A stretch of 64,000 bases of DNA from Vitis vinifera (Eukaryota; Streptophyta; Magnoliopsida; Vitales; Vitaceae): contig NC_081820.1 of assembly GCF_030704535.1 (NCBI RefSeq), forward strand, positions 24,422,001 to 24,486,000, in the 5' to 3' direction. The notes under the pieces are model-generated. The model searched no databases. It was not told the origin of the DNA and saw nothing but the letters and a program-made list of their open reading frames with translations. A program made the translations under genes and the position numbers. Positions 14,614 to 54,900 of the stretch are shown piece after piece; positions within the stretch are counted from its first letter, which is position 1, and the number at the start of each line of letters is the position of its first letter.

Positions 14614-16894
14614 TGTAGACCCCCATTTAGGCGTGGATCACCTTTTTCTCTATTTATTTTTGCAGATCACATTTTTAGTCAGGTGTCGCTATCCCAGTGG
14701 GCCACGTGTCACATCCTTAGTGACCATAAGGAATCAACCTCGCTTTTTGAAGCTGTAAGAGGAGTGGGACAGAAAAGGTGGCTGCAGTGGGGCGAGACAG
14801 AAAAGGTGGCTGCAGTAGAGATCATTGAAAAGACAAATCCGAGATACAGAGGTGAAGGGGGGGGAGGACAGCAGGGTGCCGGAAAAAGGAAGAGTTTTTC
14901 TGAGAGTTTGGGGGGAAAGGAATATGGGTTGAACGACAATAGGAAGCTAAGAACAGAGGAGCGTGGAGTCGTTGGGAAGAGTCCAGGACACGAAGCTGAA
15001 AAGGGAGATTTCCAGGTATGACCATTTGTTTTTTATGTGTATATTTTCCTTTTTTTTCTGTCCAAGTCTGATTGTCAATGATTTTTTTCATGTCTGCTTG
15101 TTGGATTGTTCTGTTTTGGTGTCTACTGATTGAATATTGGAAAAGTTTGCTGTGTTTTATGCCCTATTCTGACGAGTATTTTCCATCGTAACTCACCGGA
15201 TGTTGGACCCATGGATGAAACGATGAAATGGGTCCGATATGCTAGTTAAAGTCTTCATTTTTTTTTCTTCTTGTTGCTATCCTGTTATCTTCTTGTTTCC
15301 CTTTCCTCCCTGAGTGCACTCATGCAAGCGTGTCGTCATCTCGTCCCCATGTGTTTTTTCTTTATCCACCATACCCATCGTTCACCTATACACCTCTCTC
15401 TCTAGGTCGTCATACCCATTTCCTCACTCAAGCCTGCAGGAATCAGGCATCCTCCACCACACCCATTTTTCTCTCATTCATTCCCCATCCCACTCCCTCA
15501 CTTACATGGAGTCTCCCGGGTGCATACTATCCTTCACTCTTTCGCATACCCATTAAAGTCACTCACCCAAGCCTCCATATCTATACAACCCATACTTATC
15601 CTTCATGCTACTCATAACAATGTTCTACCTTATCCAGGTGTCTCACTCCGGGAATTCCTCTCCGCCGCCATTCCATTCGAGTGTCTCACACCCGGAATTC
15701 CTCTCCGCCGCCATTCCCCTTGGTGTCTCACTCTCGGGATTCCTCTCCGCCGCCATTCCCCCGGGTGTCTCACTCCCGGGATTCCTCTTCGCCGCCATTC
15801 CATCCGGGTGTCTCACACTAGGAATTTCTCCCCGCCGCCATTCTCCTGGGTGTCTCACTCTCGGAATTCCTCTCCGCCGCCATTCCATCCGAGTGTCTCA
15901 CACCCGGAATTCCTCTCCACCACCATTTTCATCCGGGTGTCTCACACCTGGAATTCCTCTCCGCCGCCATTCTCCCGGGTGTCTCACTCCTGGAATCCTT
16001 CTGCGCCGCCATTCCCCCGGGTGTCTCACTCTCGGAATCCTTCTGCGCCACCATTCCATCCGGATGTCCCACATCCGGAATCCTGCCCCGCCGCCACTCC
16101 CTTCTCCAGATGTCTCACATTTTAAATTTTCATCTTTAGGGTTTCAAGTCCTAAAAATCACATTCTTAATAAAAATTGGTTGCCACTTTCCTTCTGGCAA
16201 GCCATTTTCACACCTTCTCTATTTTAAAAAAATGTTTTGAAATAAGCAAATAATCAAAATTTGTAATTCTAAATAATGGAATTTACGGATTTGGTCCATG
16301 CAAAAATGAACTGGGCTTTGGTGGGGGCCCCACATACATGATCTTATGATCAATTGATTGATCTGTTTGACTGACTCGGTTGTCATACATGATTTATTTA
16401 TCCTACTCTCTAACATACATGCGATTATTCCTTAACTATGCACTAACCTCACTTCTTGATAGCGCTTTATTGGATCGCTGCCCAGGTACGCATCCACATC
16501 CACTTTGGTAATTTTCTATACATGTTTTGATTCTTATATGTGCAATCATACTGATTATTCATTGATCACCTCATCAATTGCCACGTTAGCTTCATTTTAT
16601 TAGTAGAGACCCGACTTTAGAGACTTAAAGGGGTGCTACGGTCTTTATCGTACCTTCCCGATAAGTAACCTGATCCCCGAACCCAATCCGGTTTTTTGCA
16701 GACCGTCTTTTCCAAAATAAAAAGTCACACTTAGGGTTTTTTCTTTCTTATTTTGTTTACCTTTTAAAAATAAAACAAAAATAAGTGGCGATTCCAAGTC
16801 ATTTTTTTTAACCAATAAAATCACAATTTTTCAAGTAAAAATTGAGCTTGCCATCAAGTGGGAAACGCATTGAGCACGAAATGCGGGGTCCACA
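14614..16894 (+). mobile_element. Solo LTR-like fossil with internal minisatellite (LTR retrotransposon, probably Ty3/Gypsy)
   Basis: The element runs from TGTAGACCCCC to GGGGTCCACA, so it has the TG...CA ends and a short inverted terminal match. The flanking five bases are AATGT at 14609-14613 and AATGC at 16895-16899, a near-perfect target duplication. Length is about 2.3 kb. The 3' part (16600-16860) has the GTACCTTCCCGATAAGTAAC and AAGTGGCGATTCCAAGTCA phrases that recur in long LTRs of woody eudicots. No gag or pol is visible, so this is best read as a solo LTR left by recombination. It interrupts the A+T-rich intergenic DNA and is clearly more G+C-rich than its flanks. Age cannot be dated from one LTR. 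Gypsy assignment is from memory of similar LTRs. Confidence 0.65.
15639..16118 (+). repeat. 42-bp GC-rich minisatellite, about 11 copies
   Basis: About eleven units of 42-45 bp begin GTGTCTCAC, continue with a variable (T/A)C-C-GGAAT block and CCTCTCCGCCGCCATTC, and end in CC(C/A)(C/T)CCGG. Because the period is close to a multiple of three, several long open frames with SPPPF-like repeats arise. These are by-products of the repeat. Units differ by point changes, so homogenisation is incomplete. The array lies inside the solo-LTR-like fossil. Confidence 0.9.
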
Positions 16895-22143: not shown

Positions 22144-24946
22144 CTATTGCTTCTTTTGACTAGCCTCTTTTCCCCTCTCAGCATACCCTTGGCGATTTCT
22201 CATTATCCAAAACCTCTCTATTTCTTCAGGTTTTCGCCCCGGAATTCGACCTGCTATCAAATCCCACCTGAAAAATTGCGTCAAAGACTCAAACTTTGAT
22301 AATTGGCTTAAGAGTTTTGATACCATATTAAACTACCAACCTAATAAAAAAAATTAATATATCATTAAATGACAAGCTTATAGCATATACCGACATGGAA
22401 TTAAAATTTAAACATTATTCTATTAAAAAAAATCATGATAAAAAAACAAAAGAAAAATATAAGTATATTTGATGATCCTTCTTCAAAAAAAAAAAAAATT
22501 GTTTTTTTTTTAATAATAAAGTGTTTTCATAATATCTTTAAATTATTTTTATTTATTTTCAAGAGTTGATAAAACATTAAAAGTAACATATTAGATATAA
22601 AAATTATTTGAAGTTTTCAAATCAATTTTATGTTTTATAAAATATTAAATAATAGTTTTTAAAAAATATTTTAAAAAACTGTTTTAAAAAATAGTTATCA
22701 AACAAATCCCTGTTATTTATTTAAGTCCCTTTTAATATTTAGTTTTTTTAAAAAAAATATTGTTTAATCAAATCACGAATCAAAACACTCTAAATATTTG
22801 TTTGATAAGAAATTTCTATTTTTATTTTTTAATTCAAACATATCAAAATTTTATTCTAAATGGCATTTTCACTGTTCGATCATGGCCCCTTGGAGAAAAA
22901 TACTTCAAAATTATTTCATTGCTAGATATAAAAATTTATAAAAATATAATTTATTGATAGAGAAATCTAGAGACCACTCGAATGCAACTTGGCAACATGA
23001 AGAGACACTTGCTCTCTCAACGACAATCCCTCCAATCCTTGCTTTCTGTGATTAGACCTTAGGGACCTTCATATAGCTGTCACTGAAAGCAATTTTTCTA
23101 AGTTGGATAACTGGGTAAGTTTGATTTGGGGAAACTTGTGTTTTGATAGGCCATTTAGAAAATATCTGATTTTTGGAACCCAACTTTATAAAATATGAGA
23201 ACCAAATTTTAATATGGAAAGTAATACTATTTTCATGCACTCTCAGTTGGCTCTATTTTTTTTGCCAAGATTACCCTCCGACAACAATGACCTTGACGGC
23301 GATGACTTTTGGCTTAGGTTTTTCAATGCCCCGAAGGAGGCTTCCTTTTTGGCTTTTTTCTTCATGCTGGAGTGAGGAAGACAAAAGTGTCCTTGCCGTC
23401 GTTGTTGCTCCGGTGGAGGAAGTCGCGGAACTTCCACCATTTCAATGATCCTGTGGAGTTGCTTTTCTTGTACCTTCTAGGTGGAGACTCCATCGCCTTG
23501 GGTTTCCACACGCAGTATGTCCCCAGTGGCACTCCCTCGAGCTCGTTGGCCTCTGAAGCCGTTCCTCTCTCCTCTATCAAAAGCATATTTTTCAATTGAA
23601 ATTCTATTTCATATTTGAGAAAAATCCGGAGGTGTCAAGGTCATTGCCGTCGCCACCATTGTAACTTTTTTTTTTTTATCTGTAATGGACTCGGAGTGTC
23701 CTTGTCATCGGAGGCCGACGAGCTCAAGAGAGTGCCATCGGGGACGTACTACGTGTGGAAATCCAAGGCTACGAAGTCTCCACCGAGAAGGTGCAAGAAA
23801 AGCAACTCCACGGGATCATCGAAATGGTGGAAGTTCTGTGACTTCCTCCACTGAAGCAACAACGACGATAAGGACACTTTCGTCTTCCTCACTCCTCACT
23901 CCAGGATGAAGAAAAAAAACCGAAAAGGAAGCCCCCTTGGGCGCTGAAAAACCTAAGCCAAAAGTTATTGTCGTTGGAGGGCAATCTTGTTACAAAAAAT
24001 GGAGTCAGTTCAAAGTGTATGAAAGCAATATTACTTTTTATATTAAAATCTGATTTTATAAAGTTGGATTCCGAAAATAAGATTTTTCCAAATGGCCATC
24101 AAAACACAAGTTTCCCTTGATTTGGCTTCAAAGAACCAGAGGCTTCACAGAGTACCATCATGAGAGGCCTTAATTTCAGGGATTCATGGAAGAGGAATTT
24201 GCAGAAGAAATGAGACAACAAGAGGATGGTTAATCTCGAAGTACAAGTGTACAACCCCATAGAGGAGGTAATTAATAATTACATTGTAGGGAGTACAATC
24301 ATCACAAGCATTAATTGTAGCAGAGCAGAAAACAGGACTGCAACAACTTCCCTAACACATGAGCTGTGGCCAACGCTATACTTTCAAGTTTCAAGTTTAA
24401 ACCTTTTTTTTTTTTTTTTAATAATATTTACATAGAAATAAAATTTATTAAAAAAAAAATTAGAAAAAGAAAAATCAAACAATGGTGTCAGTTATCATCA
24501 CCACAACTACTACTCCCCTGTGCCTTAAAATAAATAAAAAATTTTAAAAAAAAAATTAATACTTTAGATAACAGTTTTTATTTCTAACATTTAAAAAGCA
24601 ATTAAATAGCTCTGAAAATAATAACAATACAACGGTTGTCTTCCGGTTGAATATAGAGTAATACTCACCTATCTCCGACGAGTCTGTACATTCTGTAAAT
24701 GAGATCTTCTTCTTGTTCGCTCATGTTTATGAATTCCCATTCAATACTACTCACCTCTTCAGAAAACAAATCCAAAAAGAAAAAAGGGTGGCTCAGTCTC
24801 TACCAGTGAGTCGAAGAAGAAAGGAGAAGGAAAGAAAGAAAGGGAAGAAGAAGAAGAAGAAGAAGAACCCATTTAAGATTAGGAAAGTTACCTTCAGACT
24901 GCGAGGGGGCGGCGATTTTGGGGAGTTTCCGGCGGCGTCGGTCCAT
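22144..24946 (-). CDS. CPC: R3-MYB repressor of the CAPRICE/TRIPTYCHON/ETC type
   Basis: On the minus strand, exons 24946-24892, 24756-24669 and 22267-22144 join in frame to 88 residues. The last two donors and acceptors are split-codon junctions that restore SEEVSSIEWEFINM and GDRWDLIAGRIPGR, both hallmarks of the family. The single R3 repeat carries the bHLH-binding signature [DE]Lx2[RK]x3Lx6Lx3R within EEDLIYRMYRLVGDRWDL. There is no activation domain, and the C-terminus is short (ERGKEASQKKQ). In Arabidopsis such proteins move between epidermal cells and compete with R2R3-MYBs for GL3/EGL3-type bHLH partners, repressing trichome or non-hair fate. I cannot say whether CPC, TRY or an ETC is the true orthologue. 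Intron 2 is 2401 bp, long because a 988-bp transposon sits in it. An open frame reaching upstream of the start (to 25210) is hydrophobic and non-homologous. Confidence 0.93.
23362..23595 (-). pseudogene. DUF1645-like gene fragment, left arm
   Basis: The minus-strand frame shows ANELEGVPLGTYCVW, then KPKAMESPPRR, KKSNSTGS and the RSNNDGKDTFVFL block, which resembles the middle of plant DUF1645 proteins. It is a fragment without start, N-terminus or C-terminus, captured in the transposon arm. The frame ends soon after FVFLTPA. The other arm holds a diverged copy, which makes this a duplicated captured fragment. Function of the family is poorly known to me. Confidence 0.6.
23690..23925 (+). pseudogene. 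DUF1645-like gene fragment, right arm
   Basis: The plus-strand frame shows ADELKRVPSGTYYVWKSK, KKSNSTGSSKWWKFCDFLH and then, in the next frame, a DKDTFVFLTP block. It is the diverged mirror of the left-arm fragment. Reading runs outward from the element's centre. It has an internal stop directly after CDFLH. Confidence 0.6.
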
Positions 24947-25617
24947 GGTTTTAATGAAGGAGAGGGAGGAGAAGAAGAGAAGAAAGAAATTGAATGAAGA
25001 GGAAAGGGAAGGGAATGAATTTTTAATGAGAGAGAATATTGTGTCGGAATGAATAATGCAGATGCAACTACATATAATGAGGGTGAGGGCCAACAAACCC
25101 AGAAAATTCGTGAGTTCTGTTGACTTGTAGACTTGTAGTTGACAACCTTCAGAGAAAACGGGCACAGCTTTAGCCTCCGAGTTTTGGGGTATTTTGGTAA
25201 TTTGATTCACTCTACTTAAACTGAAAGTGATATGGGGTGATTTTGGCTTCTTATATGATTCACCGTTAAATGAACCAAAAAGGCCAATTTAACCTTTTCT
25301 TCACTTTTAAAAATTTATCGTCACTATTATTATTTTGTAGGGTTTCTCCTTGATTTTTTATTTATTTTAAGTTTTGTCTTGTTGATGCTTGGGAAGTGGT
25401 GATGATGGTGTGATTTTACTTTTGGGAAATTTCCTAGAAATTCCTAAAAGGGTAATTTTATGGGCTGAAATTACCAAAAAGGCTATATAATCATAACATT
25501 TTAAAAAATTTGTTTCAAAACTAATTTTTCTTTTAATTTTATAAAACCGATGTCTGATTAGAAATCTAAAATATTTTTATTCTGATTTTTATATTTTTAA
25601 ATATGTTTTAAAATTAT

Positions 25618-25931
25618 GTTGCTAGACGAAACGACAGAATGCATCACCTTAGATGGCGAGAGTTCAGTAACCAAAAGCATCACTAGTCTACGCTCTGACC
25701 TAAGTAGCATGAGGCACGTGGAATCCCGTGTGAATTAGCAATTACCACCTTGCAAGACTAAATATTCCTAGGTGACCGATAGCGAAGTAATACCATGAGG
25801 GAAGGATGAAAAGAACCCCCATCGAGGAGTGAAATAGAACATGAAATTGTAAGTTCCCAAGTAGTGGGAGGATACGGGAGATCTAACTGCGTGCCTATTA
25901 AAGAATGAGCCGACGACTCATAGGCAATGGA
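25618..25931 (+). pseudogene. Nuclear copy of part of plastid 23S rRNA (NUPT)
   Basis: About 310 bases match remembered 23S rRNA text of the plastid type, for example GGCACGTGGAATCCCGTGTG, TGACCGATAGCGAAGTA, CCGTGAGGGA-like, GAAAAGAACCCCCATCG and GAATGAGCC-GACTCATAGGCA. A number of positions differ, apparently mostly as C to T and G to A, which is the usual mark of an old methylated nuclear insertion. The fragment corresponds to an internal part of the 5' half of the rRNA. It sits in otherwise A+T-rich DNA and is not a working gene. Confidence 0.9.
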
Positions 25932-33080: not shown

Positions 33081-33351
33081 AAACTTGATTATTAAATGAA
33101 TTAAATACATTCCATGATATATTACTTATTTAATAATTAAGTATTATTTAGGTTTATATTTAATCTAAATTTATTAATTTTTTTACTTGTTTGATTTGTT
33201 GCATTAAAATTACAAATATTTTTATTAAAAATAAAAATAATTATAATATTTTTTACATTTTTAATTAATGAAAATATATTTTTCTTTATCATATTTGAAA
33301 CAAAAAATTAAGTGGATTTTGAAGTGCAATAATTTAAAGTATAATTATTTT

Positions 33352-33475
33352 AGAGTGCATTTAATAATGATTCTAGAAAACATTTTTAATATTTTTTAAC
33401 ACTTGAATAATATTTTTTTTTTAAGTATTAAAAATGTTAAAGTGTTTTCTAAAATCAGTGTCAAACAGATTCTTA
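33352..33475. repeat. Foldback MITE, unit 1 of a tandem triplet
   Basis: It starts GAGTGCATTTAATAATGATTCTAGAAAAC and ends TTTTCTAAAATCAGTGTCAAACAGATTC, which are near-complementary. The centre has ACACTTGAAT...TAAGTATTAAAAATG. It has no coding capacity. Confidence 0.75.
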
Positions 33476-33596
33476 AAACTCGTTTAATAGTAATTTTGAT
33501 AAGCGTTTTTAATATTTCTAATACTTGAAAATTTTTATCATTCAAGTATTAAAAATATTAAAAATATTTTCTAAAATTACTTTCAAATGCATTCTT
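33476..33596. repeat. Foldback MITE, unit 2 of a tandem triplet
   Basis: A second unit abuts the first. It runs from CTCGTTTAATAGTAATTTTGATAAGCG to TTCTAAAATTACTTTCAAATGCATTC, with AATACTTGAAAA...TTCAAGTATT in the centre. Confidence 0.75.
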
Positions 33597-33715
33597 AAAA
33601 TATATTTGGTAGTGATTATAGGAAGTGTTTTTGTGTCTTATAATACTTGAAAATTTTCATCCTTCAAGTATTATAAAACCCAAAATCACTTTCTATAATC
33701 ATTGTCAATCGTACT
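33597..33715. repeat. Foldback MITE, unit 3 of a tandem triplet
   Basis: The third unit runs from ATATTTGGTAGTGATTATAGGAAGTG to CACTTTCTATAATCATTGTCAATCGTACT. Its core TAATACTTGAAAA...TTCAAGTATTA is a good palindrome. Confidence 0.75.
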
Positions 33716-34554
33716 CTATATTTTATTTAAAAAGTGATTTTGAAAATATTGGAAAGGTAAGTGATTTTGAAAATATTAAAAACATTTTTCTTAAAAAAAT
33801 TTAACCGTTGATAAGATTTTAGAAACTATTTGTAAACGTTTATTTCAATTTTTCTTCTTTACAGATAACAACTTCATAAAAAATATTACTAAAAATATAT
33901 TTTTTGGTTCATATTCAAATATTAATTAATAATGTCCTTACATCCCAAAATATAATAGTAACCAAATTCAATGAGAGGGTCATGGTGATGAGAGGAGGTA
34001 TATACCGAATGGATTTTTTAAATATATATATATATTATTTGTTAGAAAAATATTATTAAAATACAATAGCTTGAAGAATATCAAGAATTGTATGATGATA
34101 AAAACTATTTTGTAAAATTATCTTTTTGAAAAGACAAGTTCCACAATAATTCAAATATGCTAAAGTTGGCTGTTTTATTAAAAATAAAAATATTTTAATT
34201 TTTTAAAAATAAAAATAATAATTTTATATTTTAAAAATCGAGTTCAATAACATGTTTAATAATGATTTTAAAAACCTTTTTAATTTAAAAAGTGTTTTTA
34301 AAACTGTGTTTAGGAGTGTTTTACTCAATGTATTTTTAGTAAAAGTGTCTCTTCTTAAAAAATATTTTTAGGAGAAATGCGTATAAAATGTTTTTCGAGA
34401 AAATATTATAAGTGATTTTTTAATACTATAAATAATTTTTTCAAATTTTGGAAAGTATTTCATAAATTTTATTAAATATTTTAAACATTTTTTCAAAAAC
34501 ACTTTTTAGATTAAAAACGCTTTGTAGAATTACTATCAAACAGAATCCAAAAAG

Positions 34555-34665
34555 TGTGTTTGGTAGTGATTCTAGAAAACGTTTTTAGTCTATTTCACAC
34601 TTGAATGATAAAAAAAATTTAAGTAAAAATATTTCATAAAATCATTGTCAAATGGTTTCCCTCGT
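34555..34665. repeat. Foldback MITE, same family
   Basis: GTGTGTTTGGTAGTGATTCTAGAAAACG at the left and AAAATCATTGTCAAATGG at the right are the family's ends. Bases 34270-34540 hold further decayed units. Confidence 0.6.
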
Positions 34666-34872
34666 GTTTGATAAATTTTAGAAAATATTTTTAAAATTTG
34701 AAAAATAACTTGTAGTATATTAAAAAAAATACTTGATAGGCGATTCTCCAAAATAAATATTTCGAGAGATAACTCTACTAAAAATAATTCGAGTAAAATA
34801 ATTATCAAACATATTTTAAAAAATAAGTTTAACTTAAAAATATTAAATTCATCTTTTTTTTTTTTTTTTTTA

Positions 34873-34995
34873 AGAGTATATTTGATAATAATTCTAGGAA
34901 ACGTTTTTACTCCTTTTAACATTTGAATGATAAAAATCTTCAAGTATTAAAAGTTTTAAAAATGCTTTATAAAATCATTATCAAATGAGTTTTAA
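34873..34995. repeat. Foldback MITE, same family
   Basis: GAGTATATTTGATAATAATTCTAGGAAACG at the left and TATAAAATCATTATCAAATGAG at the right match the family ends. The centre carries ATTTGAATGAT...TTCAAGTATTAAAA. Confidence 0.6.
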
Positions 34996-36149
34996 GTTAA
35001 ATTTGATGGGGATTCCACTCCGCATAAAATAAGATAGTTTTAAAAATATCAAAATCTTTTTTTGTTTTTTTGATCTCCTATGAGCCCCATACCTGAACTT
35101 ACCGACAACTCTCCTCCACATGTAAGAAATAAAATTTTATATGAATTAATGATACATGACACATCTACAAAGTAAATAATGTTCTTTTTTAATATAAGAT
35201 TTCCAAATATTATGCCACTTGACATCAAAATATGTATTATTCAAAGCTATTGTATTCAAAATGTACCATGCTTTTTGGGCCAAATGATAAGCATGACAGC
35301 CTGTAATGAGATGTGACCCATATTTTTTCTTTTGGACACCTTCCAAATTGCAGATATTGTAGGCAATTTGCTTGTAGTAGAACCATGCTTCACACTTTCC
35401 GTCTTTTTATTTATTTATTAATTTTTTTAATGGGTTTTTCTTAGAAGGTGCGTACCGTGTGGATAAGGTTGTAGTCACGCTTCCACTTAGCGGACAGCCG
35501 AAAGAAAATAATTCTCTAACTTTTAGCTTGAAGTTGGTGTGTTGTTAAAAATATGAAATGGGTTTTATGGACCTAGTGGTAGAATCCCATGAACCACTGG
35601 GTGAGTTCCACACTACATGTACACATATATTCGATTGATAGCAAAACATTACTTATATTAAAACTTTGGGGTAATTTTATTTTGATGAAAAGTAAGACTT
35701 CTAGGTTTCATCAAGATTCTCGATTGATTATTCCGTTGATCAAGTTTCTCGTTTCATGCCATGAATGAAACTACAAAGACAATAACCATTCTTTTCTCTA
35801 GTACAAGAGTTTTAACCTTCGTTTTCATGGAGAAAAATAGAAAAAACTTTGAGAAGTGATTTTCTTTTCTTTAAAAAAAGAAGAGTATGTATTTCTTTTG
35901 TATTCAAAGAGAAAAAAAAAAATGTATTTCTCTCTTTTCGATGTTTTTTAAGGAGAGATAGTAGAGAGAAAATAAACTTTTTTTTATTTATTTAATAGTG
36001 ACAGTCTTTGGGTAGTTTTAAAACTCTTAGAAACTACTACCCTTATTTCTATCATTTATTGGGTTGGGTCGTGTCAACTCACTTGAGCGCCCAAACCCAA
36101 CTCCAACACATTCACATTCCCTAAAGTTTTAGTCATATACATTTAGTTT

Positions 36150-48963: not shown

Positions 48964-51900
48964 CTATTGATCTTCAGCAGTAAAATCCGGCTCCGCCGGT
49001 TTCTGAAGCAGTATCGGTGATATTCTCTCTGGCAACCTTGCTTTTCGTGTCTTGTTACGCCGCAAAGCACGGAGAGCATTGGCTGCGAATCGGGATGCAT
49101 AAATGGTGGCACCTAGACTAGGTGAGCTCCCACCTGCCTTGGCCAATGCGTCCTGCAACCTATCCTCCTCTTCCCGAAGGGACTCTTCCAGCTTCTTCCT
49201 CCAGTAGCGGCGCCAGGCGGCTTGTATGAAACAGGCAGCCCAAGTCCTCCACTGGTGGGAGTAGAGCCTGAAGGTGTGGCGGAGCTGCTTGCTGTGGAGT
49301 CTTCGGAATTGGGAGGCAACAAACTTCAGGTCGTCAGCCATTAGAGCAAAGGCTTCAACTTCGGAGAGGGCTAGGACGGTTCTGGTTGAAATGGGAAGGT
49401 TTGATGTTGAGTGGGGGTCCAGTGCCCATGTGAGAAGTTCTTCTCCACAGAAGTCACCGGCTTTCAGATAATCAGAGTTCAAGAAGCCAGTCCTTCCACC
49501 ATTGGTTGTCATGGTGGATAGCTTGCCTCGCATGACAAAGAGCATCTCATCGACTGGGTCCCCCTCCCGGACGATGTAGCTATCTTCTGTGTACAGTGCT
49601 GGCTTGAGACGGTCACACATTGCATCCATCAGTTGCTCATCCATCTTTTCGAACATTGGCACCTTAACAATGTTTAAGAAAAAGATGTAAATCCATGGTT
49701 TAGTAATAATTAATGGTGCATTACCAATCAACTTGAAGACAACACACAATGCTGAAAACCAAAGAAGTAAATGAAGATTAGAAAAGAGGTATACACTCAA
49801 ATTATACGAAGTATGTGCCGGTAGGACAGTTTTTTTTCTAAGACTGTTTGGTTGTAGGAAAGTACTAAGGATAAAATATATATATTAAGATTATGTTTAG
49901 TTCCTAGAAAGTACTAAAAAAAGAAAAAAAATATTAAAGAAAATAATTTTCTCTTGTTTGGTTATATTATAGAAAATCAAATACAATTAAAATAGGTTAG
50001 AAATTTATATATTTTAAATTATTTAATATTTATATAAAATAAGTTAAATAAGTTTGAAGTAGTATATATAAATAACTTATTGACTTTAAATCTATTTTTT
50101 ATTTTCCTTTACTTTTTTTTCCTTATACTTTTCCTCTCAATTTTCTTTCCCTGGTATCTTCTCTCAGATTTTCTAGGAACCAAATATAGTTTAAATAATG
50201 CTCAGATCAAAAACCTAAAACCACTGATCTGTGTAATCAGCAGAGTAACTATCTTAAGCACTGACATGAACATTGTCTTCATGTCAATGCTAACAACTAA
50301 CATAAGCTACTTGTCTGTCCCCACCCAAACAAAAAGGAGAAAATGCAACTGAATGTATACCATCCATGGGGTATATTTATATTAAAGGGAAGGTTATGAC
50401 ATATTGAAATAACAGATCAGCCTTAATGCATATCTCGCTAATTCAGAAATTATATAGATATTCTCATTCACTTGAAGGGCAAATAATAGTAAGAGCAATT
50501 CTAGAAAAGGGTAGGTGAACTCACTCTCCTGAGCAGAGCCAAGCAGAGATGGCGTTTTATGTCCCTTCTAAGGTCCTTGGGAAGATTAATGAGTAGATTC
50601 TGTTCGTCAACACCTCTGGTTTCTTGCCACTTGTACTGTTCATACCTTCTGATTCGCTCCCTCAGACTCTCAGGAAGCAGGCGATGAGACATCCACTGTT
50701 CTGCATCTCGCCTTTTCACTCTCATCTCCTCCAATCTTATGGTTGTGGACTGCAGATATGTCTGTTACACCACAAATTCAGTACATCAATTCAAGACTAA
50801 ATGAGTACCATAAAATATGGTCCAGGCATCCAGACCATCTCATGAGCCTCACATCACTCTTTAATTCTTAAACTTGGCTTGGTTTCATAATCAAAACAAT
50901 TCAGTCATAAAATGTATAGATGTTTTTCATATCATCCAGATATTGACATAGCTCCATTTTTCATAAGGGAAAAAAATGTCTTTAAAAGATGCATGTCATT
51001 GATGCTACCAAGACATTTTTAACCAGCCAATTGCTCAATTCCCCAAAAAAGATATCAAAAGCCATTTTACTTGATTCTAAAAACTCTAGAACTTTTATCT
51101 ACAAAACATCAGTCATTTAGTACTGCAAACACAGTATCAATGGAAGATCTCTGGAACCATTTCCATAATCTCCCATCGTGTTGAAATACAACTTCTCTAT
51201 GGATGTTATGTTTCCAGAGCACTGAAGGACAAAATGAACATGCATTTACTATATTGAAGCAATAATTACACACCAAAAAATTCTCAAACCATGCCCATTG
51301 ATTGAGTAGTCCAAAAGAAAGAAGCAGGTGTGTGATATATCCTACTTATGATTTACACAGCATCTCTCATGCTTACACATAGTATCAAATAACTAAGAAC
51401 TAATAAATAGAAATATTCAGCACTAACCTGCATATTTCCAATAAGAAATGAAAATAAAACCAAGCCAGAGATGGAAATGAACACTGCAAAGCAAATTTCC
51501 CAGACATAGGTGCTTGTTTTGAGGTTTTGACCAAGAGAACTGCAAAAAATGTACCAAGTATAAAATACCACAATAATAAACACAAATGATGCTCAAAGTA
51601 AGAAAACCAAAAGTGTATGCATTTATCATTACAAAGAGAGGGTTTGAACAAGGTAGAGATATGTCATATATTTTATGGTAAGACCATCTATATAATTGGA
51701 AATGCAAATAAGGGAAACCAACCCAATTTTGACAAGTGAAAATTCATAAGACAGGAGATTACAGCTGCCATGCTGCATAAAAAATTTTCAACCATTTACA
51801 ACAATTGACTCCTGAGAACTACATGAGCTTAAATCATTTTAAACCAATAATCATCATTTGTCTGGCATCCACCTAAAATTTTCTCTTGAATTATGCAGTA

Positions 51901-54900
51901 AGCAGCACCAAATTTATGAGCTAAAAGCAATTTGAATTTCCACTACATGAGCTTAAATCATTTTAAACTAATAATCATCATCTGTTTGGCATCCACCTAA
52001 AATTTTCTCTTGTATTATGCGGTAGGCAGTACCAAATTTATTAGCTAAAAGCAATTTAAATTTCCATTAATTTTTTGCATTGGCCTATGCCTTTCTCACA
52101 CATTATGTGATGGGATGCAGCTAAGTCAGCCAGTGGCCCCATGGTTTCGTGATAACATTACTTTAGATTACGAGCCTAGAGCAAAGATCCATTCAAATTA
52201 GATCCACAGAGAAAAAGTCCAGAATATGAAGGTTTTAGGTTAAGTAGGACTAAAATGGATTAAAGAATACAACAATAATAAAATTAGGTGCAGAGGGAAT
52301 AGTTAAAATAGATGGATATGAGACACCTATAATTGATTGAATTTATCATCTAGGTTGATCATTCAACAGTGGGAATTGATACAGATGTTGCACATAGAAT
52401 TAGAGTGTTTCTGCAGTGTTGTGAGGATGCAAATACCATTCTTCTATTTGAAGGCAAAAATTACAATTCTGCTATAAGACCTATGTTGCTTTATGGTTAA
52501 ATGTTGGAAAATCAAGAAACACATGCAACATGAGCATGTCTGAAATGAGGATAATGGACCAGTAGCAAAGCAAGAAAAGATAGAATAAGAAATGAGTGTA
52601 TCCATTTGGGATCAAAGTAGTACCAACTGAGAAAAAGGAGAGGGAAACTCATTTAAGATAGCTTGACTAGCTGCCACAGAGACCAATAAATGTGTTTAGA
52701 GCACTATTTTGCTTTTAACTTGAAGCTGCTCAAGGGACAAGAGAAAGATCAAAAAGAAGTCTAACTGAGGCAGTAAAAAAGCAATTATGTCTTTAATACA
52801 ACATTGGACACGGTCCTAAATAGAGCTCAAAGGCAAGCAAGAACTCACTTAATGAACCCAAAATGTTGGAATATAGATGAAATATTTGAATTACCAAAGC
52901 TCATATTTGGCTACCCGTTCAGCCCTTCCCTAGAAAACTCTCACTACATTAAATTCTCAGCATGAGGTAGGTAACTAAAAAGTAACTAAAGATGAAAAAG
53001 GGAAGATAATATAAGATGAGGAGCATGGGCATCACACGTGATTAATATAGCATGCTATGTATAATGCAACAACATAGCAAGTCTGCATATCTACATAAAC
53101 TAAGAATTTAAGGGCAGTGAATGAGAAGCATAGTGGTGGACACAGCACAACCATTATTTCTGAAGTCTGAAGCACAGACTGCTTTCTTGTTCGCATACTC
53201 TATGAATGTGAAAGGAACATGATTAGAACTCCAAAAAACACATGTATGATACAAAATGCTTATTTATGGAACACACTGACATTAAGTGTTCAAAAATAGA
53301 TTGATATGAAAGAATAAAAGATTTGACATGGGCATACCTCAGATTTTGCAGGCCCCACCAAAAACAGTAAAAGAACTTCTGTGGAAAATCTGTTGACTCC
53401 ACAACACCAGACTGAAGGGCGTCAAGTAATATTCCAAAATCAAAAACCGTTGTATTTGGTTCTATTACAGGACATGAAGCGTTAAAAAGTGTTGTATTCA
53501 CTGTTCCTTTACAATATAGAGAACTATCAATGCATGAAGTATCATTTCCACAAGCTTTTGTCCAGCATGTAGTTTCGCGATCTATAGCAAACAAGTACCA
53601 AAAAGCTCCAAGTACCTACAACATCTTAAAGTAATGATCAGAAAGATCTGTAAAAGAGATAATAATTTCACTTCTATTTGAAAAATAAGTTAACAGGGAA
53701 AACTAAAAAATGAAAGCTTTTCACATTTTACTCCTATATTCTGTCCGTGCCACATCCCTCCAGGAGGAGAGAGAGAGATCCAAAACACATTTTTCTCCTG
53801 CTTTACCCTTGGATATTATTCCATTTGCAAACATTGGTGCCCATTAGAACCTACAAGGTATCCTCACTGACAACTGGAGTTATAATTTAACCATCCAACA
53901 TGTTTATTAATCTAATTATGGGAACAGGTATAATTTGGCTACAAACATGGAAACCATACATCTATTGTTTGATTTTTTTATTTTTTTTATTTTTTATGGG
54001 TAAAGCAAGAGAATATCATAAAAAGAAATGCCAACAGTGTGCCCCAAAGTACATACGATGCATCTATTGTTTGATATATGAAGAATCCTAGTAAATATCA
54101 TGGTAGGCAAACATTTAGTAGCAGAGGGCCTAAATCTTAACATATGGGGATGAATCTCACTCCTAGACATGCAAACACCTAAAACACACACCCAGATCCA
54201 TGCAAAGCAAATATCTTTCTCATTTCTTTTTTGTAAGTTGTTAGATCTTATATCTTGAATTGCTTCCTTTTTTATGTCCAAAAAAGAAACAAAGAGTTCT
54301 TATTCATTTGAAAAAGTCAGTTTCAGATCTGTGAGAAGTCAAAAGCCAAACATCCAATATGTGTTTAAAAAAATGAATTGTTCCAAAATTTCAAGGTCAA
54401 AGAGAATTTTAATATGTATAAAACATAAAGGCAGTAAATATACGCACCATATCTACATACATGTCTATATATAAAAATGACATTTAAGCCTTCATAACAT
54501 GGCATTTGCCAAATATGTTTGCAAAAAAAATGTAATGGCAGGTAATCAAACTCACATGACTCGCAAGCATGTAAAGAAAGAGATTGAATGCAGCTCCAGC
54601 CCATGCAGTTTCAGTGAGTATGCCAGAAGTTCTTGTGACTTCTTTGTATAACGGACGAACTCGGAGCACCCGTGGTATGTATTGGAAGAAGACAACAAAT
54701 TTCAACAGCCTCTTTGTATTCATGTATTTTGAGCCTCCTAGTTTGGGAATGATAATCCAAATTACCACCTGAACATATTGCAATAAGATTAAAGTTCACA
54801 CCTAATATCAAATTAATGCAACTTAATGCTAGTAAAAACAAGATATTAACTTGCTTGGGTTTTGATTTCAGACAATTTACTGTCATAAGAGCCTTTCTAG

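Follow-up and report, generated by a model that had tools for sequence, protein, structure and literature searches.

The 988-bp imperfect inverted repeat at positions 23129-24116 of the 64,000-nucleotide stretch of DNA analyzed here (the window) lies in an intron of a predicted R3-MYB gene and carries a piece of a DUF1645 gene in each of its arms. It raises the questions of what kind of sequence it is, how one gene fragment came to be present twice in opposite orientations, and whether RNA made from it could silence the gene from which the fragment came. The explanation that accounts best for the observations, and that we regard as highly probable as a whole, is that it is a hairpin Pack-MULE whose ancestor would have captured part of a gene on contig C17, extended its termini into the captured DNA by copying of one end, transposed, and then decayed under methylation.

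The inverted repeat and its host intron

The model of the R3-MYB gene was built from splice sites and the protein. It comprises three minus-strand exons, and its product contains a Myb_DNA-binding domain (E 4.5e-9). Intron 2 extends from 22268 to 24668 (2401 bp), begins with GTGAGT, ends with TTTCAG, and contains the element, in agreement with the first-pass annotation, which had placed it in an R3-MYB intron. The features of this region are as follows.

22144-22267, minus strand: R3-MYB exon 3, coding part, ending in TAG (splice junctions, stop)
23121-23128, no strand: left target duplication, TTGATTTG (9 bp, TTGATTTGG, with a one-G overlap), from the flank match
23129-23277, plus strand: left TIR core, AT-rich (GC 0.306 over 23129-23275), from family matches to element positions 1-149
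23306-23584, minus strand: left captured DUF1645 fragment, long arm, matching C17 gene positions 781-486 (PF07816, E 9.5e-12)
23585-23697, no strand: loop beyond the donor matches, with a match to the interior of other family members at 23618-23653
23698-23964, plus strand: right captured DUF1645 fragment, short arm, with an in-frame stop, matching C17 gene positions 516-781 (PF07816)
23978-24116, minus strand: right TIR core (GC 0.305 over 23976-24116), from family matches to element positions 850-988
24117-24124, no strand: right target duplication, TTGATTTG, from the flank match
24669-24756, minus strand: R3-MYB exon 2 (splice junctions)
24892-24946, minus strand: R3-MYB exon 1, coding part (splice junctions)

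Positions 23278-23305 and 23965-23977 separate the captured fragments from the left and right TIR cores, respectively. Alignment of the two arms (23129-23556, 428 bp, and 23708-24116, 409 bp), which flank a loop of 151 bp, gives 349 identical and 52 mismatched bases (87% identity over 401 aligned bases) in addition to 35 gap columns. A chance palindrome was rejected, since the element scores 774 against its own reverse complement and none of 200 dinucleotide shuffles exceeds 52; the best score among 122 other 988-bp stretches of the window is 232. Both arms are layered, with AT-rich outer parts of 147 and 141 bp (GC 0.306 and 0.305, left and right) and GC-rich inner parts of 281 and 268 bp (0.516 and 0.500). 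Even when as many as 3 mismatches are tolerated, the 19-bp terminus is confined within the 64-kb window to the two ends of the element, and TTGATTTG is present at both ends as an exact 8-bp target duplication (random pairs of window 8-mers match at a rate of about 1e-4), which becomes a 9/9 duplication, TTGATTTGG, if one G is allowed to overlap the element end. The imperfectly matched arms of about 410-430 bp with matched ends and the 8-9 bp target duplication described at first pass are thus borne out.

The PF07816 (DUF1645) profile scores above cut-off in the left arm (E 9.5e-12) and also in the right arm (E 2.2e-8 with X at the in-frame stop, E 1.5e-5 up to the stop), so that the DUF1645 fragment previously noted in both arms is indeed there. 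Among the 18 stop-to-stop frames of at least 40 aa in the element, the ten longest were scanned and DUF1645 was the sole family found; within those ten frames, the element has no transposase of its own. A 15-bp tandem duplication gained by the left arm was rejected because, as judged by eye, the translations of other copies have the same stretch, which in the window copy appears rather to have been lost from the right arm.

Several other repeats and insertions were observed in the window. An Rfam match to bacterial-type LSU rRNA at 25386-25846 (E 1.2e-22; the rRNA-like part is at about 25630-25930 by eye) is probably a plastid-derived insertion. A GC-rich minisatellite with about 11 copies of a 42-bp unit occupies 15637-16101, and a 124-bp unit is present twice in tandem, with 92% matches, at 51818-52066. 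In the AT-rich region at 33345-35000, tandem repeats with a 122-bp unit overlap inverted ones; these may be nested small transposons.

Family, probable donor gene, and proposed formation of the hairpin

The genome searched comprises 495.6 Mb in 21 contigs. A 22-bp terminus with up to 2 mismatches occurs at 140 sites in it (71 forward and 69 reverse), as against 0 for the reversed control, so that the terminus does recur elsewhere in the genome, as expected of the transposon that had been proposed; an exact terminus scan of viral_contigs gave 0 matches. The TIR core that the element shares with this family is 149 bp long on the left and 139 bp on the right; the terminal inverted repeats of TIR-type Mutator-like elements usually measure 100-500 bp. 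In the 30 relatives with both ends recognized, the 9-bp flanks, when each end may be shifted by as much as 2 bases, agree at 9/9 positions in 15, at 8/9 in 8, and at 7/9 or fewer in 7; in a control in which flanks of different elements were paired and shifted in the same way, there was 9/9 agreement in 2 of 870 pairs and 8/9 in 17. When no shift is allowed, perfect flanks are found in 11 of the 30 at 9 bp (control 0/870), in 4 at 8 bp (control 2/870), and in 0 at 10 bp, a peak from which the target duplication of the family is taken to be 9 bp. Members with fewer than two ends recognized automatically (L009, L019, L020, L022, L026, L038, L040, and L041) lie outside this count; L038, L040, and L041 are represented by partial sequence only, which for L041 is one end.

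A MULE transposase domain is encoded by two relatives of the element. L039, which is 8.7 kb long and has TIRs of 435 and 447 bp and a 9/9 target duplication, contains this domain, PF10551 (E 7.4e-16), and the same domain is above cut-off in the end of L041 that is in hand (E 1.1e-15). The left TIR of the window element is 75-80% identical to those of L039 and L041 over 134-149 bp and the right TIR is 69-71% identical; for L039 the values are 75-76% over 134 bp on the left and 69% on the right, and L039 therefore need not be the helper. Because its relatives have 9-bp target duplications, long TIRs, and MULE transposase domains, the window element is placed in the Mutator superfamily and is a non-autonomous TIR-type Mutator-like element (Pack-MULE); the target duplications of TIR-MULEs are given as 9-11 bp in PMC3310237. 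The exact 8-bp match of TTGATTTG would suit a hAT element, since hAT target duplications are 8 nt according to PMC8903248, but this assignment is very improbable and was rejected in view of the same three family features, and even 8 bp is compatible with a MULE, for which PMC4858842 gives a usual range of 8-11 bp. Less probable still, and likewise rejected, is an inverted duplication or young MIRNA-type locus formed in place with no transposition; MIRNA genes related to TEs and pseudogenes are indeed described as arising by inverted duplication (PMC3237417), but opposed to such an origin here are the target duplication, the termini shared at 140 sites, the three sister copies on other contigs, and an Rfam search of the window that gave no match inside the element. 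The locus is thus a hairpin transposon, as first proposed, by its inverted arms, target duplication, family termini, and sister copies.

In the long-armed family members L045, L053, L025, and L037, the inner arms resemble one another and family sequence elsewhere, and these members are therefore not counted as gene captures. A separate stretch, L013 262-9597 (C10:23593361-23602696), has 9.3 kb between two family termini, with inverted arms of about 3.1 kb that are 89% identical and a longest stop-to-stop frame of 157 aa.

A search of the genome with the left DUF1645 fragment found 10 places, namely the eight arms of four hairpins, a gene on contig C17, and a distant paralog on C1 (69% identical). 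The hairpins are the window copy on C16 (C16:24445129-24446116) and copies on C6, C18, and C15; each has DUF1645 sequence in both arms, and the arms make up 84-87% of element length. In the C17 gene, an ORF of 312 aa, with a TTG taken as its start, encodes a complete PF07816 domain; all eight arms show 86-90% identity to the gene. It provides the genomic relative that the host-derived fragment of the first-pass annotation implied, and by sequence comparison this one gene is the probable donor. A PF07816 profile search gave 18 matches, comprising 7 genes with near-complete domains, the 8 arms, and 3 other partial matches. No single-fragment DUF1645 Pack-MULE intermediate is present among the 10 places found with the left fragment, and no relatives of the fragment were confirmed in genome_contigs or viral_contigs.

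In each hairpin the donor match ends inward at gene position 486-488 in the long arm and at 513-519 in the short arm, and the alignments of the sister copies with the window copy continue across the loop. Since these asymmetric inner edges match in the four copies and the loop aligns, a single inverted duplication followed by transposition is indicated. A 12-bp deletion is common to the long arms of the C6, C15, and C16 copies and is absent from C18. The tree of the arms is star-like and weakly supported (0.47-0.85), and long and short arms do not form separate groups in it, so that later gene conversion between arms may have occurred. The target duplications of the sisters range from 9/9 (C18) through a run of A (C15) to 6/9, with no clear duplication (C6, L009). 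By eye, the C6 copy lies between ORFs resembling tandem glutathione transferase genes (L009 1185-1921 and 5625-6161), and the C15 copy lies near an LBD-like ORF (L011 4880-5685).

A second series in the same clan bears on how such hairpins form. Its probable donor, by sequence, is an ORF on C17 that encodes a DUF1639 domain (L069, 3016-4854; at C17:3751515) and has neither family termini nor an inverted partner. The Pack-MULEs L067 (C14) and L068 (C15) each contain 1.84 kb of this donor and have terminal arms of 461-467 bp, in which the TIR runs 283-286 bp into donor sequence. Shorter than these are two hairpins, L042 (C5:24422848-24425913; arms of 693 bp, 97.4% identical) and L070 (C18:13332600-13335950; arms of 810 bp, 98.5% identical), which have 511 bp of donor per arm, the donor match extending to 626 bp on one side of L042. 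All four elements have 9/9 target duplications (L067, L068, and L070 stand outside the count of 30 relatives), and arm identity across the series is 96-98.5%; the DUF1639 hairpins are younger than the DUF1645 hairpins. L042 and L070 share 371 and 327 exact distinct 21-mers, respectively, with the donor stretch. A Pfam search of the L042 ORFs gave nothing above cut-off, whereas the donor ORF itself matches DUF1639. We read these sequences as a graded series from donor to Pack-MULE with partly extended TIR to full hairpin, the order of events being our own reading.

This gradation makes a route of capture, TIR extension, and internal deletion plausible for the DUF1645 hairpins as well, and by analogy we infer extension of the TIR into captured DNA as their mechanism of formation. 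An ancestral element would have picked up roughly 300 bp of coding sequence from the DUF1645 gene on C17, after which one end would have been copied onto the other, and the TIR, at first a core of about 149 bp, would have come to include the gene sequence. The hairpin formed in this way would have transposed with the transposase of a relative acting in trans, giving rise to four copies, one of them inside intron 2 of the R3-MYB gene. The copies would then have been methylated by the host, the presumed cause, and decayed, the intron transcript still being predicted to fold as a hairpin from which small RNAs may be made.

Decay and silencing potential

Transitions account for 43 of the 52 substitutions between the arms of the window copy. 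The sites changed between these arms are 16 of 31 in CG, 7 of 20 in CHG, and 20 of 137 in CHH contexts (CG plus CHG versus CHH, p 2.6e-5). Relative to the C17 gene, and on the assumption that it is the less changed copy, C>T and G>A changes pooled over the eight arms number 180/1337 and the reverse changes 24/885, with C-to-T changes at 93/426 CG, 53/234 CHG, and 34/672 CHH sites; because the arms share ancestry, these pooled counts are not independent events. Cytosine methylation in plant transposons is expected to leave C-to-T changes at CG and CHG sites, and the pattern thus suggests methylation as the cause of arm decay. The K2P distance between the window arms is 0.147, a value that was not turned into an age because methylation inflates the rate. 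Differences between the arms fall evenly on codon positions 1, 2, and 3 (8/64, 7/64, and 9/63), from which it appears that coding has not been maintained, and G-U-forming mismatches number 23 on the plus transcript and 20 on the minus (MYB-sense) transcript, so that the MYB-sense RNA gives no indication of having been selected for pairing. These two observations, together with the C-to-T decay, argue against a maintained regulatory role; the element is old, and nothing in its sequence points to a current function.

The long hairpin that the first-pass annotation suggested for the intron RNA is recovered as a prediction, the number of arm-arm pairs being 368 whether the element is folded by itself or as part of the complete 2401-nt intron; the longest uninterrupted helix in the predicted intron fold is 24 bp, G-U pairs included. 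Such a hairpin might act on the element itself, giving 24-nt siRNAs that direct methylation of the element's DNA, and perhaps that of the surrounding R3-MYB intron, and leave DUF1645 genes unaffected. We see the chances of this as evenly divided; it is compatible with the Pack-MULE explanation, to which it would be an addition. The strong CG and CHG C-to-T footprint favors it, as does the link drawn in PMC4858842 between folding of MULE TIRs, 24-nt small RNAs, and methylation, but the footprint is silent on the methylating pathway, and CHH sites are the least changed (34/672).

It is unlikely, by comparison, that the element is a natural hairpin silencing locus in which intron or antisense RNA gives rise to 21-24-nt siRNAs that act in trans to repress the DUF1645 gene on C17. 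In addition to the predicted pairing, such a role would draw on the modest set of 32 distinct 21-mers and 20 distinct 24-mers of the element that recur exactly in the C17 gene (taken over all four copies, the distinct 21-mers number 63), and the inverted CHS repeats of the soybean I locus would be a natural precedent (PMC3804491, PMC13051633). The first-pass annotation had DUF1645 family genes in general as possible targets, which is too wide, since exact 21-mers are shared with the C17 gene but none of those in the two DUF1645 fragments recurs in the four other genes compared (on C1, C3, C7, and one on C18); the two DUF1645 genes on C14 stand outside this comparison. In the window left arm there are 19 exact 21-mers against a mean of 2.7 under random placement of mismatches (fraction 0.017), but this is one of only 2 of the 8 arms that fall below 0.05, uncorrected; the excess is weak, and uneven mutation may lie behind it. 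The arms, moreover, are only 87% alike, and there is no G-U bias in the MYB-sense strand. It should also be noted that a model of read-through from the flanking gene was rejected at the maize locus Mu killer, where silencing accompanies antisense transcripts from a promoter inside the element and read-through yields sense transcripts that are not involved in silencing (PMC3440606); intron read-through is therefore not to be assumed sufficient here. What the exact matches would permit is weak targeting of one gene.

A broader proposal, that by TIR extension the clan repeatedly makes captured host genes into mobile hairpins (four for DUF1645 and at least two young ones for DUF1639), which scatter into transcribed regions and repress their donors in trans, is similarly doubtful. 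If it were true, the expression of donors would be tied to the host genes in which the hairpins land.

Comparison with known systems

As a Pack-MULE the element is of a kind already known, and there is little new in the window copy itself; the DUF1639 formation series and its young hairpins are the most interesting part of the analysis and are worth more attention. Sequence acquisition by MULEs was described as "yet to be understood" in 2012 (PMC3310237). The present genome apparently holds a graded series for one gene and an older, finished group of hairpins for another, and both the route of formation and the question of donor silencing are therefore testable in it.

The Pack-MULEs that Ferguson and Jiang (2012, PMC3310237) mention as having acquired sequence within extended TIRs resemble the window element in being non-autonomous TIR-MULEs with target duplications of the 9-bp type, a gene fragment, and several copies. 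Here, the arms form 84-87% of the element, and all four copies have the gene piece in both arms. In grapevine itself, the Mutavine families are similar in having long TIRs, 9-nt target duplications, and transduplicated gene pieces, and Mutavine-12 (10 kb, TIR of 416-441 bp) resembles L039 (8.7 kb, 435/447 bp) in element and TIR length (PMC2528002). The CHS inverted repeats of the soybean I locus share with the window element inverted gene sequence and potential siRNAs against related genes, but have a demonstrated phenotype and siRNAs, whereas the window element is a decayed transposon known from its sequence (PMC3804491, PMC13051633). The closest analogue is maize Mu killer, as it is described in PMC3440606. 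There, the duplicated gene is that of the transposase and a silencing effect is shown, whereas the window element duplicates a piece of a host gene and is characterized at the sequence level only. Mu killer nevertheless resembles the window element in being a MULE that has undergone deletion, in which both TIRs derive from a single end and part of a gene is duplicated in inverted orientation, and in its association with a transcribed gene, to which it lies adjacent.
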